Below, one piece after another: positions 57,224 through 64,000 of a stretch of 64,000 nt of DNA (its first letter is position 1; every line of letters starts with the position of its first letter). The DNA lies in the NCBI GenBank assembly GCA_016869555.1, contig VGDY01000001.1, forward strand, positions 1 to 64,000, given 5' to 3'. The DNA is from Alphaproteobacteria bacterium. Its GTDB lineage: Bacteria; Pseudomonadota; Alphaproteobacteria; Rhizobiales; Beijerinckiaceae. Under the pieces are notes generated by a model. That model worked only from the letters and a program-made list of their open reading frames with translations. It was not told the origin of the DNA and did not search any database. A program made the position numbers and the translations under genes.

Positions 57224-58654
57224 TTGTTCATTTTCGTCTCAGCTTTCGGTCTGTTGTCCTGTCTCCTTTTGGGCGGCGGAACGCGCCAGGGGTTGCTTTC
57301 CGACGCGGTTCTTCAACTTCTTTCAATCCCCGTTTTCCTCTTGGCGCTTTGGCGCCTTCTGGATGCGCCGCTCAGCCGCGACCGGCGTTGGCCCTTGATC
57401 TTTTGCGCAGCGATCGTCGCGGTCCCAATCCTGCAGCTCGCGCCGTTGCCGCCCGCGATCTGGACGCGTTTGCCAGGGCGCGCGCTCGTCGTCGAGAGTT
57501 TTGAACTGCTTGACCGCACGCCTACATGGGCGCCGATCAGCATGACGCCAGAGGCGACCTGGCTCGCCGCTCTTTCGCTTCTGCCTCCGCTCGCGATCTT
57601 TCTTGCGGTTCTAACGCTCGATCGACGCGATCGTCGGCGGCTGAGCTATGCGATTGTCATTGTTGGGGTCATCAGCGTCTTTCTCGGATTGATTCAGCTC
57701 GCGCAGGGGCAGACAAGCCCGCTGCGCTTTTACGAAATTACCAACGCCGGCGATCCAGTAGGGTTTTTCGCGAACCGCAATCATTTCGCGGCGCTGCTCT
57801 ATAGTTCGATGTTGCTGGCCGCGGCGGCGCTTGCGCCTCGCCTGGCCGCCTTTTCGCCCGGATCCGGGTCGTCTCGCCGCGGGATCGACGCGTCTTCGGC
57901 CATTGGTCCCGTGGGCGCCATCGCCGCCGGCGTCGCGCTGATCGTGCTGATCGCCGGCGAAGTCGCCGCCCGTTCCCGGGCCGGCGTAATATTAGCCGCG
58001 ATCGGTCTTTCCCTGTGTTTCGTCATCGGCGACGAAAGGCGTCGAATCGTCGAGAAAAAAACCTTCCCTCGGGCGTTGGCCGCGATTGTCGTCGCCGCGA
58101 TCTTTCTCCTCGGACAGGCCGCGCTGTCTCGACTGCTTGACCGATTTGACGCCGACCCCCTCGCCGGCGCGCGACTGGTGTTTGCGAGAAATACGATAAC
58201 GGCCGCAAAGAGCGTGACTCCCATCGGCGCGGGATTGGGAAGCTTTCCCTCCTTCTACATGACGTTCGAAAAGCCGGCCGATCTGCAGGCGGACGCATAC
58301 GCCAATCACGCGCATAATGATTTTCTCGAATTATGGCTCGAGACGGGACTCATCGGTCCAATCATGCTCGGCCTGTTTCTGGTTTGGCTGGCGCGCAAGG
58401 CGATCGCCGCCTGGACGACGCCGGATCCTGGCCGGCTCCCCGTTGACCGGCCTTTGGCGCAGGCGTCAGTCATTGTCATTCTTCTGCTTCTCTGCCATTC
58501 GCTTGTCGATTATCCGTTACGTACCGGCGCGATGACGGCGGTCTTCGCATTTTGTTGCGGCCTGTTGATCGATCCGCCGCCGGTTTCGGGCCGCGCCCCT
58601 TTCGCGCGCCGGCGAAGAACGCCGCCGCCGTCGAGACAAGCGCAACGAAATTGA
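57224..58654 (+). CDS. O-antigen ligase/polymerase family protein (Wzy/WaaL-like)
   Basis: Multi-TM; GFFANRNHFAALLYSSMLLA..., TPIGAGLGSFPSFYMTFEKPADLQADAYANHAHNDFLELWLETGLIG. Confidence 0.9.
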   Translation: MFIFVSAFGLLSCLLLGGGTRQGLLSDAVLQLLSIPVFLLALWRLLDAPLSRDRRWPLIFCAAIVAVPILQLAPLPPAIWTRLPGRALVVESFELLDRTPTWAPISMTPEATWLAALSLLPPLAIFLAVLTLDRRDRRRLSYAIVIVGVISVFLGLIQLAQGQTSPLRFYEITNAGDPVGFFANRNHFAALLYSSMLLAAAALAPRLAAFSPGSGSSRRGIDASSAIGPVGAIAAGVALIVLIAGEVAARSRAGVILAAIGLSLCFVIGDERRRIVEKKTFPRALAAIVVAAIFLLGQAALSRLLDRFDADPLAGARLVFARNTITAAKSVTPIGAGLGSFPSFYMTFEKPADLQADAYANHAHNDFLELWLETGLIGPIMLGLFLVWLARKAIAAWTTPDPGRLPVDRPLAQASVIVILLLLCHSLVDYPLRTGAMTAVFAFCCGLLIDPPPVSGRAPFARRRRTPPPSRQAQRN

Positions 58655-59017
58655 AGACGAGACCTGCCACGCTTGCGCGTGGCGCCGAAGCGCACAAATA
58701 GCGCGGCGCGTTCTTCGGCCTTCGGCAATTTATCCTAAAGCCCCATAACTATTGGGCAGTTGACATTCGAGACGCGCTTTTTCACGCTGTCGCGACGGCG
58801 CGCTTTTTTGGCACGTCTTGATCGTTTCCCAACGGCGTATAAATTGCTCGGCCAAAGCCAGATTCTCGACGATTGGACCATTTTGGCGCGCATCGCTGAA
58901 TCAGCCGTTGTCGGGGTGGGCGTAGGCGAATGCGTTTTGGCGTCTTGGCGGAGGCCAAGAGCGCAGCGAAGAAAGATTGGGATCGCGTCGCCTTTTCACG
59001 GAATCGGTCGAGGGCGA

Positions 59018-59026
59018 GGTAGCGTG
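59018..59026 (+). promoter_or_regulatory. ops-like motif GGTAGCGTG in the leader of the NusG-like gene
   Basis: GGGCGAGGTAGCGTGATCG, same 9-mer as at 59883-59891. Confidence 0.35.
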
Positions 59027-59147
59027 ATCGATCTCGAAAAAAATATTGAGCGCGCGCTGCGAAATGCCGGGTTCCACTTTTTCGCGAGCCGCGCACCATG
59101 GCTGGGAGGCAAGCGTGTATTTGGAGCGCATTGAGCGATCGGAGACA

Positions 59148-59684
59148 ATGCTTCCGAGAACGTGGGATGTTCGGAGCCCCCTTGAGAAGGGAGAGCGGTG
59201 GTACGCCGTCCGCTCCTTGCCGCGACAGGAAGCGAGAGCCGAGTTCCAACTTCTTCGGCAGGGCTTTCCCGTTTTTTCCCCGCGCGCGATAAAAACCGTC
59301 CGGCATGCGCGAAAGCTGCGCATGGTGAAAGGCCCCGTATTTCCCACCTATATGTTCGTCGTGCTCGACGTCGAACGCGATCGCTGGCGGTCGGTGAACG
59401 GCACCGGCGGCGTCGCGAGCTTGATCATGCAGGGCGATACGCCCCAGCCGGTTCCTGTCGGCGTCGTCGAAAATCTGCTCGATCTTGTCGACGAGGAAGG
59501 CATGGTCCGGTTCGATCGCAATTTGCGCGAAGGTCAAACGGTGCGAGTCGTCGCCGGCGTTTTTGCAAATGCAATTGGCGTGTTGGAGCGATTGGACGCC
59601 AATGGGCGCGTACGCGTGTTGTTGGACATCATGAACGGCAAAGTGCCCGCGCATCTCGATCGCCTCGCGTTGGAGGCGGCGTGA
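59148..59684 (+). CDS. NusG-family transcription antitermination factor (RfaH/UpxY-like paralogue)
   Basis: GERWYAVRSLPRQEARAEFQLLRQGFPVFSPRAIKTVRHARKLRMVKGPVFPTYMFVVLDVERDRWRSVNGTGGVASLIMQGDTPQPVP plus KOW-like C-terminus GQTVRVVAGVFANAIGVLERLDANGRVRVLLDIM. Confidence 0.9.
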   Translation: MLPRTWDVRSPLEKGERWYAVRSLPRQEARAEFQLLRQGFPVFSPRAIKTVRHARKLRMVKGPVFPTYMFVVLDVERDRWRSVNGTGGVASLIMQGDTPQPVPVGVVENLLDLVDEEGMVRFDRNLREGQTVRVVAGVFANAIGVLERLDANGRVRVLLDIMNGKVPAHLDRLALEAA

Positions 59685-59879
59685 CGCAAAGCGAATGGCG
59701 AAGGCGTCAGGCGTTGAGAGCGTCAAACGCGTACAACGGTAGCAGGAGCCCGGCGGCGTCGCGGTTGATCATCCGACGCCGCATGAGCCGTTAGCGGCTT
59801 GCAAATGATCGGCGTCGCGCAGGATGGCGCGGCGCCAATAGTCGGCGATAGCGAGTGAGGAGACCCTCTTCACCCGAAC

Positions 59880-59891
59880 GGCGGTAGCGTG
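59880..59891 (+). promoter_or_regulatory. ops-like element GGCGGTAGCGTG in the asnB leader
   Basis: Sequence matches the enterobacterial ops/JUMPstart core GGCGGTAGCGT as remembered; 150 bp upstream of asnB, same strand. Confidence 0.45.
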
Positions 59892-60040
59892 GCGCGCATG
59901 CGCCGCCGCCTGCAGCTGATGGCGTCGAAGCCGGTTCGACCGGCCCTTCGGGCCAATCCGCAAAACGCCGACGCAATAAGAGGCGATCTCGCAAATGTCA
60001 CGATCAAGGCCAAGTCATTGCTTCCCATGCGAACCGGCTG

Positions 60041-61900
60041 ATGTGCGGAATTAACGGCGTCTTTGCTTACCAAAGCCTCGCCAACCCGGTCGACCGTCGG
60101 GAGCTGTTGGCGACGCGCGACCACATGACCGCAAGGGGGCCGGACGGCGCAGGTTTCTGGATCAGCGATGATCAACGTGTCGGCCTGGGGCACCGTCGCC
60201 TGGCGATCATCGATCTATCCGAGAGCGGGGCGCAGCCGATGCGCACGATGGACGGTCGGTTGGCGGTGACATTCAACGGCGAGATCTACAACTACCGCGA
60301 TTTGCGATCCGAACTCGAAGCGAAAGGCTATGTCTTTCGTTCGCGTTCCGACACCGAAGCGCTTCTGCACCTCTATGCCGATCGCGGCCCCGACATGGTC
60401 CATGCGCTGCAGGGAATGTTCGCCTTCGCGATCTGGGACGAGGCCAAGCGCGAACTCTTGCTGGCGCGCGATCCTTACGGCGTCAAGCCAGTCTATTACG
60501 CCGACGATCGCAAAACCTTCCGTTTCGCTTCACAGGTGAAGGCGCTCATCGCCGGCGGCGCGGTCGCGCGAGACCCCGATCCGGCGGGTCAGGTCGGTTT
60601 CCTGCTGTGGGGCAGCGTGCCGGAGCCCTTCACCACATACCGCGCCATTCGCATGTTGCCTGCCGGATGTCGGCTTGTCGTCAATCAAAGCGGCGTTGGC
60701 GCGCCGGCCCGATATCATTCGATCGGACAGGTCTATTGCGATGCGCAGGCTCGCATGCGGGGGCCAGGCGTTCGTCAATTCGCCATTCGCGACGAGCTGG
60801 CGCAGCAGACGCGAGACGCGCTGCTTGACGCCGTCCGGCGCCACCTTGTGGCCGATGTTCCTGTAGGGGCGTTCCTGTCGGCCGGAATCGACTCAGGCGC
60901 GCTTGTCGGCTTGATGCGAGACGCGGGCCAGGCTGAAATCAAGACCGTCACAATCACGTTCGATGCATTTCGGGGCGGCCCGGAAGACGAAGCGCCGCTC
61001 GCCGCCGAAGTGGCTCGGACCTACGGCGCGGCGCATGCGACGCGCGTTGTCGCCGAACAAGAGTTGCGAGCAGAGCTGCCCAAAATCCTCGCCGCGATGG
61101 ACCAGCCTTCGATCGACGGCGTCAACACATGGTTTGCGTCGAAGGCCGCGCGAGAGCTTGGCCTCAAAGTCGTCGTTTCGGGCCTTGGCGGCGACGAATT
61201 GTTCGGCGGCTATCCCTCGTTCCGGGACATTCCGCGATGGGTGGCGCGTCTTGGCGCGCCCGCGCGCCTCGCGAAACTTGGCGCGGTCGTACGCCGCTTG
61301 CTGGTCGCCAGCGGGCTCGACCAGCGGCTGCCGAGCCCGAAAGCCGCTGGACTCCTCGAGTTGGGGGGGAGTTTCGCCGGCGCCTATATGCTGCGCCGCG
61401 GCCTCTTCATGCCTTGGGAGCTTGATCGCCTGATTGACGCCGACATGCTGCGCGAGGGCCTTGCGACGTTGCAACCGCTCGAGCGCGTGCAGGAAGCGAT
61501 GACGCCATGTCCGGCGACGCCGTTCGCCACGGTCGCGACGCTTGAGTCGTCGCTCTATATGCGCAATCAGCTTCTCCGCGATACGGATTGGGCCAGCATG
61601 GCGCATGGATTGGAGGTTCGCGTTCCGCTGGTTGACGCGACGCTGCTTGAGCGGATCGTCGCGCTTGGCGAACCCCCACGGAGCGACGCGCCAAAATCGC
61701 TTCTTGCGCAGGCGCCGCGGCGCCCGCTTCCGGACGCGGTGGTCCGACGGTCAAAGACCGGCTTCGTTGCGCCAACGCATGCCTGGATCGCCGCCGACAG
61801 CATGGGACAATCGCGATCCGCGTCGGGCGGCGATCGTTCCCGCAGGGGAATCGACTCGCGTATCTGGGCGCAACGGGTTCTGGCGGACGCCATAGCGTGA
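60041..61900 (+). CDS. asnB: Asparagine synthase (glutamine-hydrolysing), EPS-cluster type
   Basis: MCGINGVFAYQS...RGPDGAGFW...FNGEIYNYRDLRSELEAKGYVFRSRSDTEALLHLYAD; SAGIDSGALVGLM. Confidence 0.95.
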   Translation: MCGINGVFAYQSLANPVDRRELLATRDHMTARGPDGAGFWISDDQRVGLGHRRLAIIDLSESGAQPMRTMDGRLAVTFNGEIYNYRDLRSELEAKGYVFRSRSDTEALLHLYADRGPDMVHALQGMFAFAIWDEAKRELLLARDPYGVKPVYYADDRKTFRFASQVKALIAGGAVARDPDPAGQVGFLLWGSVPEPFTTYRAIRMLPAGCRLVVNQSGVGAPARYHSIGQVYCDAQARMRGPGVRQFAIRDELAQQTRDALLDAVRRHLVADVPVGAFLSAGIDSGALVGLMRDAGQAEIKTVTITFDAFRGGPEDEAPLAAEVARTYGAAHATRVVAEQELRAELPKILAAMDQPSIDGVNTWFASKAARELGLKVVVSGLGGDELFGGYPSFRDIPRWVARLGAPARLAKLGAVVRRLLVASGLDQRLPSPKAAGLLELGGSFAGAYMLRRGLFMPWELDRLIDADMLREGLATLQPLERVQEAMTPCPATPFATVATLESSLYMRNQLLRDTDWASMAHGLEVRVPLVDATLLERIVALGEPPRSDAPKSLLAQAPRRPLPDAVVRRSKTGFVAPTHAWIAADSMGQSRSASGGDRSRRGIDSRIWAQRVLADAIA

Positions 61901-62814
61901 CGATGCCGCAAACCGAGCATGGCGGCGCAAGCCCGGCAGGCGACGTCATGCAGACGCATGTCGAGCGCGCGCCTGGCGCGACGATGACTGGCGAACGCGT
62001 GGTGGTGCTTGAGGCCGGACGCGCCGAGAGCAATTATTGGCGCGATCTGTGGAATTATCGCGAGCTGTTCCTGATCCTCGCGTGGCGCGACGTTTCGGTG
62101 CGCTACAAGCAGACCATGATCGGCGTCGCCTGGGCGGTCATCCGCCCGCTGGCGACAATGGTCATTTTCACCATCATCTTCGGCAGGCTCGCGAAGCTCC
62201 CGAGCGATGGCGCGACGCCCTATCCGATCCTGGTGCTGTCGGGGATGCTGGCGTGGTTCCTCTTCTCGGGCATATTGGGCGACGCTTCAAGCAGCATGAT
62301 CGGCAACGCCAATTTGATCGGAAAAGTCTATTTCCCCCGGATCATCCTTCCCGCTTCGACAGCGGTCGTGGCGCTCGTCGACCTGGCGATCAATCTTGTC
62401 GTCCTGCTCGCCCTGATGGCGTTCTACGGCTTTCTGCCGGGCTGGAGGATCGCGCTGCTTCCAGCGTTCATCGCCTTCGCGGTCGTTGCGAGCCTCGGGC
62501 CCGCGCTGCTCATCGCCGCGCTCAACGTCAAATACCGGGACTTTCGCTTCATCCTGCCCTTCTTGCTGCAGTTCGGGCTCTATGTTTCGCCGGTCGGCTT
62601 TTCCAGCAGCGTGGTGCCTGACGGCTGGCGGTTCCTCTACAGCCTCAATCCAGTGGTCGGGGTCATCGACGGCTTTCGCTGGTGCCTGCTCGGCGGCGAA
62701 AGCCAACTCTATATGCCGGGATTCGTCGGAAGCTGCGCCGTCGCCGTCGCGCTCGCCTGGCTTGGCGTCGCTTATTTCCGCAAATTCGAGCGGTCCTTCG
62801 CGGATGTCATCTGA
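61897..62814 (+). CDS. Polysaccharide ABC exporter permease (Wzm/KpsM-like)
   Basis: YRELFLILAWRDVSVRYKQTMIGVAWAVIRPLATMVIFTIIFGRLAKLPSDGATPYPILVLSGMLAWFLFSG. Confidence 0.94.
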   Translation: MTMPQTEHGGASPAGDVMQTHVERAPGATMTGERVVVLEAGRAESNYWRDLWNYRELFLILAWRDVSVRYKQTMIGVAWAVIRPLATMVIFTIIFGRLAKLPSDGATPYPILVLSGMLAWFLFSGILGDASSSMIGNANLIGKVYFPRIILPASTAVVALVDLAINLVVLLALMAFYGFLPGWRIALLPAFIAFAVVASLGPALLIAALNVKYRDFRFILPFLLQFGLYVSPVGFSSSVVPDGWRFLYSLNPVVGVIDGFRWCLLGGESQLYMPGFVGSCAVAVALAWLGVAYFRKFERSFADVI

Positions 62815-62832: not shown

Positions 62833-64000
62833 TTGAGCGGCGACGTCGTCATTCGGGCCGACGGCCTCGGCAAGGCTTATATGATCAGCCACGGCGCCGG
62901 CGGCAACGAAAGATACGTCGCCCTGCGCGACGTCCTGGCCGGCGCGGCGCGCGGCGCCATGCGCAGGATTCGCGATCCGGCGCGCGGCGTGAGCCTTTCC
63001 GGCGGCGCGTCGACCGAGGAGTTCTGGGCGCTCAAGGATGTGAACTTCGAGGTCAGGCGCGGCGAGGTGGTCGGCGTCATCGGACGCAACGGCGCCGGCA
63101 AGTCGACGCTGCTAAAGGTGCTCTCGCGCATCACCGAGCCGACGCGGGGCAGGGTCGAGATCAGGGGACGTCTCGCGAGCCTGCTCGAAGTCGGCACCGG
63201 CTTTCATCCGGAACTCACCGGGCGCGAGAATATTTTTCTCAACGGCGCGATCCTCGGCATGACGCGCGCGGAAATCCGTAGGAAGTTCGACGAAATCGTC
63301 GCTTTCGCCGAGGTCGAGAAGTTTTTAGACACGCCGGTCAAGCGCTATTCGTCCGGCATGTATGTGCGGCTGGCCTTCGCGGTCGCCGCGCATCTGGAGC
63401 CGGAGATATTGGTCGTCGACGAGGTGCTGTCGGTCGGCGACGCCGAATTTCAGAAGAAATGCCTTGGGAAGATGCAGGATGTGGCGGGGCAGGGTCGCAC
63501 GGTGCTGTTCGTGAGCCACAATATCGGCGCTGTAAATGCGCTTTGCTCCAAATGTATGTTGCTTCACTCTGGCCGCAAGAGAATTTTTGGCGATGTGCGA
63601 TCAGCGACAGAGGCCTATTTAACTGCGGCTATCGAACATGGATACAGCGTCGAATTCTCGAAGCAGGATGCATCGTCGGGAAATTCAGCTGTGGCGGTGC
63701 GCGGCGCTCGCATCAGACATGAAAGTGGACAAGTTTCAGGGTGCGTTGCAATCGGCGAAGGCGTATGGATCGAAATAGATTATGATATTTTACAATCAAA
63801 TCCGCTGCCACGATTGAATCTTCATTTAATTGCCGAAGACGGCGTACATGCGTTCGCTTCATTCGAAAACACGGCAACGCCTCGTAGGATTGGTCGATTC
63901 TCGGCGCGCATGTGGATTCCGCCGAATTTTCTCAACGCAATGCGTTACCATATATCGATCTATTTTACTTCTGTCCGGCCCGCGCATTTGCATTTCGCGT
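62833..64000 (+). CDS. Polysaccharide ABC exporter ATP-binding protein (Wzt-like, with C-terminal extension), truncated by window end
   Basis: Own translation from TTG 62833: VIRADGLGKAYMI...WALKDVNFEVRRGEVVGVIGRNGAGKSTLLKVLSRITEPTRGRVEIRGRLASLLEVGTGFHPELTGRENIFLNGAILGM...VKRYSSGMYVRLAFAVAAHLEPEILVVDEVLSVGD; open to the edge. Confidence 0.93.
   Translation, partial: MSGDVVIRADGLGKAYMISHGAGGNERYVALRDVLAGAARGAMRRIRDPARGVSLSGGASTEEFWALKDVNFEVRRGEVVGVIGRNGAGKSTLLKVLSRITEPTRGRVEIRGRLASLLEVGTGFHPELTGRENIFLNGAILGMTRAEIRRKFDEIVAFAEVEKFLDTPVKRYSSGMYVRLAFAVAAHLEPEILVVDEVLSVGDAEFQKKCLGKMQDVAGQGRTVLFVSHNIGAVNALCSKCMLLHSGRKRIFGDVRSATEAYLTAAIEHGYSVEFSKQDASSGNSAVAVRGARIRHESGQVSGCVAIGEGVWIEIDYDILQSNPLPRLNLHLIAEDGVHAFASFENTATPRRIGRFSARMWIPPNFLNAMRYHISIYFTSVRPAHLHFA

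Follow-up and report, generated by a model that had tools for sequence, protein, structure and literature searches.

How does a NusG paralogue encoded beside a long polysaccharide operon in an alphaproteobacterium find its way onto RNA polymerase? According to a 2020 survey, E. coli RfaH was the only RfaH whose mode of recruitment was known in detail, the recruitment of NusG paralogues encoded inside their own operons was unknown, and about 18% of the rfaH genes found were alphaproteobacterial (PMC7593976). The window (the whole stretch of DNA that was analyzed, 64 kb) carries an RfaH-like gene followed by an ops-like sequence and by genes for polysaccharide export. The sequence-only reading had taken two ops-like motifs flanking this gene as duplicate copies of one signal, through which the factor would act on its own transcript and on the export operon. 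The features of the locus are as follows.

59018–59026, + strand: GGTAGCGTG 5' of the paralogue, judged to be a chance or relic match and not an element
59148–59684, + strand: RfaH-like NusG paralogue (NusG-SP), 178 aa from the ATG (domain and family models; AlphaFold)
59852–59876, + strand: conserved stem-loop predicted in the nascent RNA, CTCTTCACCCG (RNAfold, covariation, covariance-model match)
59880–59891, + strand: ops element GGCGGTAGCGTG with a predicted pause at 59890/59891, ops T11/G12 (motif search; conservation in relatives)
60041–61900, + strand: asnB-type amidotransferase, opening the operon proposed to be under control (domain and family models)
61897–62814, + strand: wzm, ABC-2 polysaccharide exporter permease (domain and family models)
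62833–64000, + strand: wzt, polysaccharide exporter ATPase, running on to contig position 64122 (family models)

The RfaH-like NusG paralogue

The product of 59148–59684, for which an alternative TTG start is possible at 59181, is a specialised NusG paralogue. It possesses an NGN domain [PF02357, E 4e-15] and is encoded besides the housekeeping NusG, which is the one other NusG of this genome. The assignment made from the sequence was thus sound, and RfaH [TIGR01955] is the best NCBIfam model, its score of 99.1 bits lying below the cut-off of 144.5; none of the alphaproteobacterial matches among 143 genomes passes that cut-off. The paralogue also falls below the cut-off of the LoaP model [NF033641, 40.5 vs 125]. 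Its AlphaFold model has a pLDDT of 84 (62 to 84 over the five models), and E. coli RfaH in complex with ops DNA is among its best PDB matches. The C-terminal domain is modelled as a mixed helix/strand fold, which is uncertain.

In E. coli RfaH the side chains of K10, H20, R23 and R73 are in direct contact with ops (PMC5995543). The corresponding residues of the paralogue are L, Q, R and G, such that R23 alone is kept (K10L, H20Q, R73G); among all the residues listed as ops-contacting in that study, it keeps R23, Q24, N70, T72, G74 and V75. Since K10, H20 and R73 are lost, the E. coli structures do not explain how the paralogue might read ops. The autoinhibition residues E48, I93 and F130 are replaced by G, V and L, none being kept. 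An alignment of 23 sequences shows AR to be invariant in the NGN loop and the RH before it nearly so, most members reading RHAR; the tip of this loop in E. coli RfaH, R40, touches upstream DNA (PMC11001881).

The repeated 9-mer

The 9-mer GGTAGCGTG occurs at exactly two sites in the window, 59018–59026 and 59883–59891, both on the + strand and just where the sequence-only reading had placed them, the second being the end of the full 12-mer GGCGGTAGCGTG, which has a single site. Shuffles gave 0.09 expected sites, and none of 100 shuffles held two. The genome-wide count that had been proposed as a check, run over the whole 3.95 Mb genome (295 contigs), returned seven sites for the 9-mer vs 24 for its reversed control, and the 12-mer was unique.

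Comparison of leaders, the other proposed check, separated the two sites: it was positive for 59880–59891, at orthologous as well as distant loci, and negative for the copy at 59018. Only the closest relative (94% protein identity) shares the latter (CGAGGTAGCGTG). No hairpin was found upstream of it, and it was missing among the covariance-model matches of this genome even at E values up to 1. We accordingly dismissed the motif at 59018 as a candidate second ops. The two motifs are not equivalent, the copy at 59880 being the end of a longer element, and the proposed action of the factor on its own leader finds no support. Nor did bare 12-mers elsewhere in relatives qualify as targets; the unlinked ones have no upstream CACCCG box, so that a 12-mer by itself does not make the signal.

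A composite element 3' of the paralogue

The longer element spans 59852–59891. It consists of a stem-loop (5' CGGGTGA...TCACCCG 3'; 5' arm 59852–59862, loop 59863–59865, 3' arm 59866–59876), three bases, and the ops core (T/G)GCGGTAGC-N-TG, in which ops bases 2–9 (GCGGTAGC) occupy 59881–59888 and T11 and G12 occupy 59890–59891. The CACCCG box is part of the 3' arm (RNAfold, 5' CGGGTGA-loop-TCACCCG). In relatives that were found through the protein and not the motif, the 12-mer or a near copy lies 3' of the paralogue with CACCCG before it, and distant loci retain CACCCG-N4-GCGGTAGC.

A pattern scan across the order (398 genomes) showed that sites in which 4 nt separate CACCCG from GCGGTAGC recur. 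In 30 of 62 such sites the fetched locus had an RfaH-like gene on the same strand, mostly 42–236 bp upstream of the site and in two instances farther, vs none of 20 sites with a 3-nt spacer (p 2.7e-5). The 3-nt sites were discarded as chance occurrences because none adjoins an RfaH-like gene. In a scan of GTDB genomes, 51 of 81 sites among the matches listed adjoin an RfaH-like gene, these records being mostly alphaproteobacterial. The distance from stop codon to CACCCG in 105 linked sites was 36–236 bp (median 63). Ops positions 1 and 10 vary among the alphaproteobacterial elements. The spacing is fixed. The consensus is shaped by the search patterns; independent of them are the 5' arm, the co-occurrence described below, and T11 and G12, which are kept in 79 and 71, respectively, of 96 non-redundant sites.

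No Rfam family matched the locus at threshold, a consensus promoter scan found none, and terminator-like matches within 58600–60100 were not above those in shuffles.

Several individual loci deserve mention. One genome (locus L094) has two copies of the element on the same strand, 1.76 kb apart, the first 50 bp after an RfaH-like gene. In another (L012/L049) the asnB-type ATG starts two bases past ops, which places hairpin and ops in the ribosome-binding region. Linked elements also occur in metagenome-assembled genomes labelled Gammaproteobacteria and Planctomycetota (L243, L262 and L246), where transfer or misbinning is possible.

The stem-loop

A sequence-only alignment of 77 sites has 88.2% of its stem cells paired; sliding the partner by one to three columns lowers this to 23–50%, and none of 500 shuffles reached the covariation score observed. 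In a second test, anchored on the core pairs alone, loop-side positions were paired well beyond what permutation gave, position -2 in 67 of 72 sites vs 43 +/- 3.4. The first test refers to an 8-pair stem checked against shuffles and slides; the consensus of RNAalifold itself, a 3-pair CCG/CGG hairpin, was set aside, its pairs being invariant and of no evidential weight. The stem in the window has one A-C mismatch and one G-U pair. Among sites the bases and length of the loop vary, as does, widely, the distance between the half-sites.

At three distant alphaproteobacterial loci the G of CACCCG is replaced (L316 and L318, CACCCA; L321 at -522, CACCCT). Judged by eye, the 5' arm of each seems to pair with the replacement base, as in CTGGG...CCCAG of L316.

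An inverted repeat (CGGGTGA/TCACCCG) that is intergenic and ahead of polysaccharide genes might also be the operator of a conventional dimeric repressor or activator, the NusG paralogue being incidental. We regard this as very improbable: the distance between half-sites varies widely, the stem includes G-U pairs, the element is strand-oriented with ops at a fixed distance after the stem, and its occurrence follows that of the NusG paralogue.

If the stem is extended to the spacer bases it ends about 11 nt from the predicted RNA 3' end. Pause hairpins lie at this distance from the RNA 3' end, and so the stem might lengthen the pause or prevent backtracking. In E. coli the non-template DNA at the ops pause is itself reported to form a hairpin, with pairs G2:C9, C3:G8 and G4:A7 and a G5-T6 loop (PMC11001881). 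The conserved ops bases 2–9 coincide with the bases of that hairpin and, together with the conserved stem, the element thus reads as an RNA hairpin plus a DNA hairpin.

One might then ask whether the RNA hairpin is the recognised part, with the RfaH-like protein binding the nascent stem-loop in the manner of LoaP and GCGGTAGC merely pausing the polymerase. The stem is conserved and covarying, most E. coli ops-contact residues are gone from the protein, an invariant basic motif (RHAR in most) stands in its NGN loop, and LoaP itself requires a leader RNA hairpin (PMC12691694). We nevertheless think it unlikely. Loop bases and length vary, unlike those of the UNCG hairpin of LoaP; the ops-hairpin bases are the part held most strictly in common with gammaproteobacterial targets; and JUMPstart of E. 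coli likewise has a stem-loop before ops (PMC2864571).

Co-occurrence with RfaH-like genes

A covariance model of 49 positions (R2) found two strong matches in the genome itself, C149:3648–3695 (42.0 bits) and C1:59841–59893 (39.9 bits), the next-best match scoring 19.5 bits. Within the genus, this genome not counted, 12 of 18 paralogue-bearing genomes contain the element vs none of 18 that lack the paralogue (E up to 1e-5; p 3e-5). Across the class the element was found in 18 of 32 RfaH-like-positive genomes vs one of 34 negative ones (E up to 0.001; p ~ 1e-6), the 18 being a lower bound because this search used stricter filters which lose weak matches. Nearly every family in this sample was represented by a single genome, with RfaH-like genes called independently by TIGR01955; the negatives were picked from the larger, more complete genomes of the list, and none of the matches was in the training set of the model. 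An ops-type signal such as had been suggested for this locus, lying in the leader that separates an RfaH-like gene from an export or polysaccharide operon, is hence conserved, tracks the RfaH-like gene and is nearly missing where that gene is absent.

That the element is a random match in a GC-rich leader is, on this evidence, exceedingly improbable. The copy at 59018 does look random, and unlinked bare 12-mers lie mostly in unrelated sequence lacking CACCCG; for the copy at 59880, chance is contradicted by conservation together with covariation, by the fixed spacing and by co-occurrence across the phylogeny.

The RfaH-like genomes without a strong element, 14 of 32 or about half across the class, may use another signal. 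Within the genus, five loci with a close paralogue (L020, L021, L023, L025 and L029) have no element in the local flank, and L021, L023 and L025 form one protein subgroup. For these members, action in trans or a different signal is possible. The genome of L020 has no element beside its paralogue and has one on another contig, before a nucleotide-sugar dehydrogenase gene, which fits action in trans.

Downstream operons and a second site

The genes asnB, wzm and wzt had been named correctly from the sequence. They open a run of same-strand genes of approximately 27 kb 3' of the element, from asnB (60041) to about 86778, which also includes methyltransferases, glycosyltransferases, epimerases and a carbamoyltransferase. 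No evident Shine-Dalgarno sequence was seen in the 22 bases before the asnB ATG.

The second strong match, on contig C149, is unlinked to the window locus. Its neighbours are a bacterial sugar transferase gene on one side and a UDP-glucose/GDP-mannose dehydrogenase gene on the other, and it precedes nucleotide-sugar dehydrogenase, Asn_synthase-type and HisH-type genes. Standing before a second polysaccharide cluster, it is the candidate target in trans. Contamination of the genome bin is estimated at 8.6%, and C149 could therefore be a foreign contig, though its GC content is close (0.613 vs 0.606).

The gene that comes first after a linked element in other genomes most often specifies a nucleotide-sugar epimerase/dehydratase, a polysaccharide synthesis protein, a dehydrogenase or a sugar transferase. 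Among genes 3' of the elements overall, nucleotide-sugar epimerases/dehydratases, sugar transferases and exporters predominate. Unlinked sites are followed by a similar and more mixed set, as expected if some of them are perhaps chance matches.

Comparison with known systems

The closest parallel is E. coli RfaH/ops. The window contains the exact 12-base ops of that system, of which bases 2–9 are conserved across relatives, and shares with it a specialised NusG paralogue whose best fold matches include RfaH-ops complexes, the leader of a long polysaccharide operon and the predicted pause at T11/G12. Unlike the E. coli factor, the alphaproteobacterial one is usually encoded directly upstream of the element, in cis; it has not kept the contact side chains other than R23 nor E48, I93 and F130, ops 1 and 10 vary, and the adjacent hairpin has its own sequence.

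JUMPstart, a stem-loop followed by ops in the leaders of polysaccharide genes, is listed as gammaproteobacterial (PMC2864571). Its model (RF01707) aligns over its full length to 59853–59891, where stem-loop, ops and polysaccharide leader stand in the same arrangement, but with 13.7 bits vs a gathering score of 35 (10.9 bits at locus L138), and the CGGGTGA/TCACCCG stem is not that of JUMPstart.

Bacillus LoaP is also a specialised NusG, for which a hairpin in the dfn leader RNA is needed for antitermination (PMC12691694). In the window, however, the hairpin has no conserved UNCG tetraloop and is followed by ops, and the target is a set of polysaccharide and not polyketide genes. Bacteroides UpxY resembles the present factor in being a NusG paralogue encoded at the polysaccharide operon which it is thought to serve (PMC7593976); the paralogue, by contrast, scores below the UpxY cut-off [NF033644, 65 vs 100], and no UpxZ-type partner was noticed among the listed ORFs.

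Proposed mechanism and significance

Based upon these comparisons we consider it likely that 59852–59891 is an alphaproteobacterial loading site of the ops/JUMPstart type for the RfaH-like factor encoded upstream, giving readthrough of the operon. RNA polymerase leaving the rfaH-like gene would transcribe the hairpin and then pause at ops T11/G12, where the exposed non-template GCGGTAGC would adopt the fold of its E. coli counterpart. The RfaH-like protein would dock at the paused ops, displace NusG and remain on the polymerase, with NusG and Rho excluded. The ~27 kb asnB-wzm-wzt-glycosyltransferase operon would then be read, in cis, through Rho- and pause-prone stretches, an antitermination probably accompanied by ribosome recruitment. 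The same protein probably acts in trans at the C149 element. Against the loading-site reading stand the retention of R23 alone among the four ops-contact side chains and the 14 positive genomes without a strong element. The sequence-only reading had missed the RNA hairpin, the C149 target and the loss of most of the E. coli ops-contacting residues.

We are more doubtful, while holding it a serious possibility, that a large alphaproteobacterial branch of NusG paralogues reads the composite of RNA hairpin and ops DNA hairpin with residues other than those of E. coli RfaH, for instance with the invariant basic loop of the NGN domain touching the upstream hairpin or DNA. Such a dual RNA/DNA loading code, if real, would bridge LoaP-type and RfaH-type recruitment.

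In kind the system appears to be a known one, RfaH with JUMPstart/ops; what seems new is an alphaproteobacterial variant with its own hairpin sequence and a predicted mode of loading. We found no earlier description of the element in the open-access literature that was searched, which leaves out most subscription journals. The question it poses is how the same ops word is read with most of the known contact residues gone. Recurring at RfaH-like genes across Alphaproteobacteria, the element predicts how these factors may load onto RNA polymerase: it is a concrete, sequence-level candidate loading site for the alphaproteobacterial RfaH-like group, and the 49-position model predicts their target operons genome-wide.
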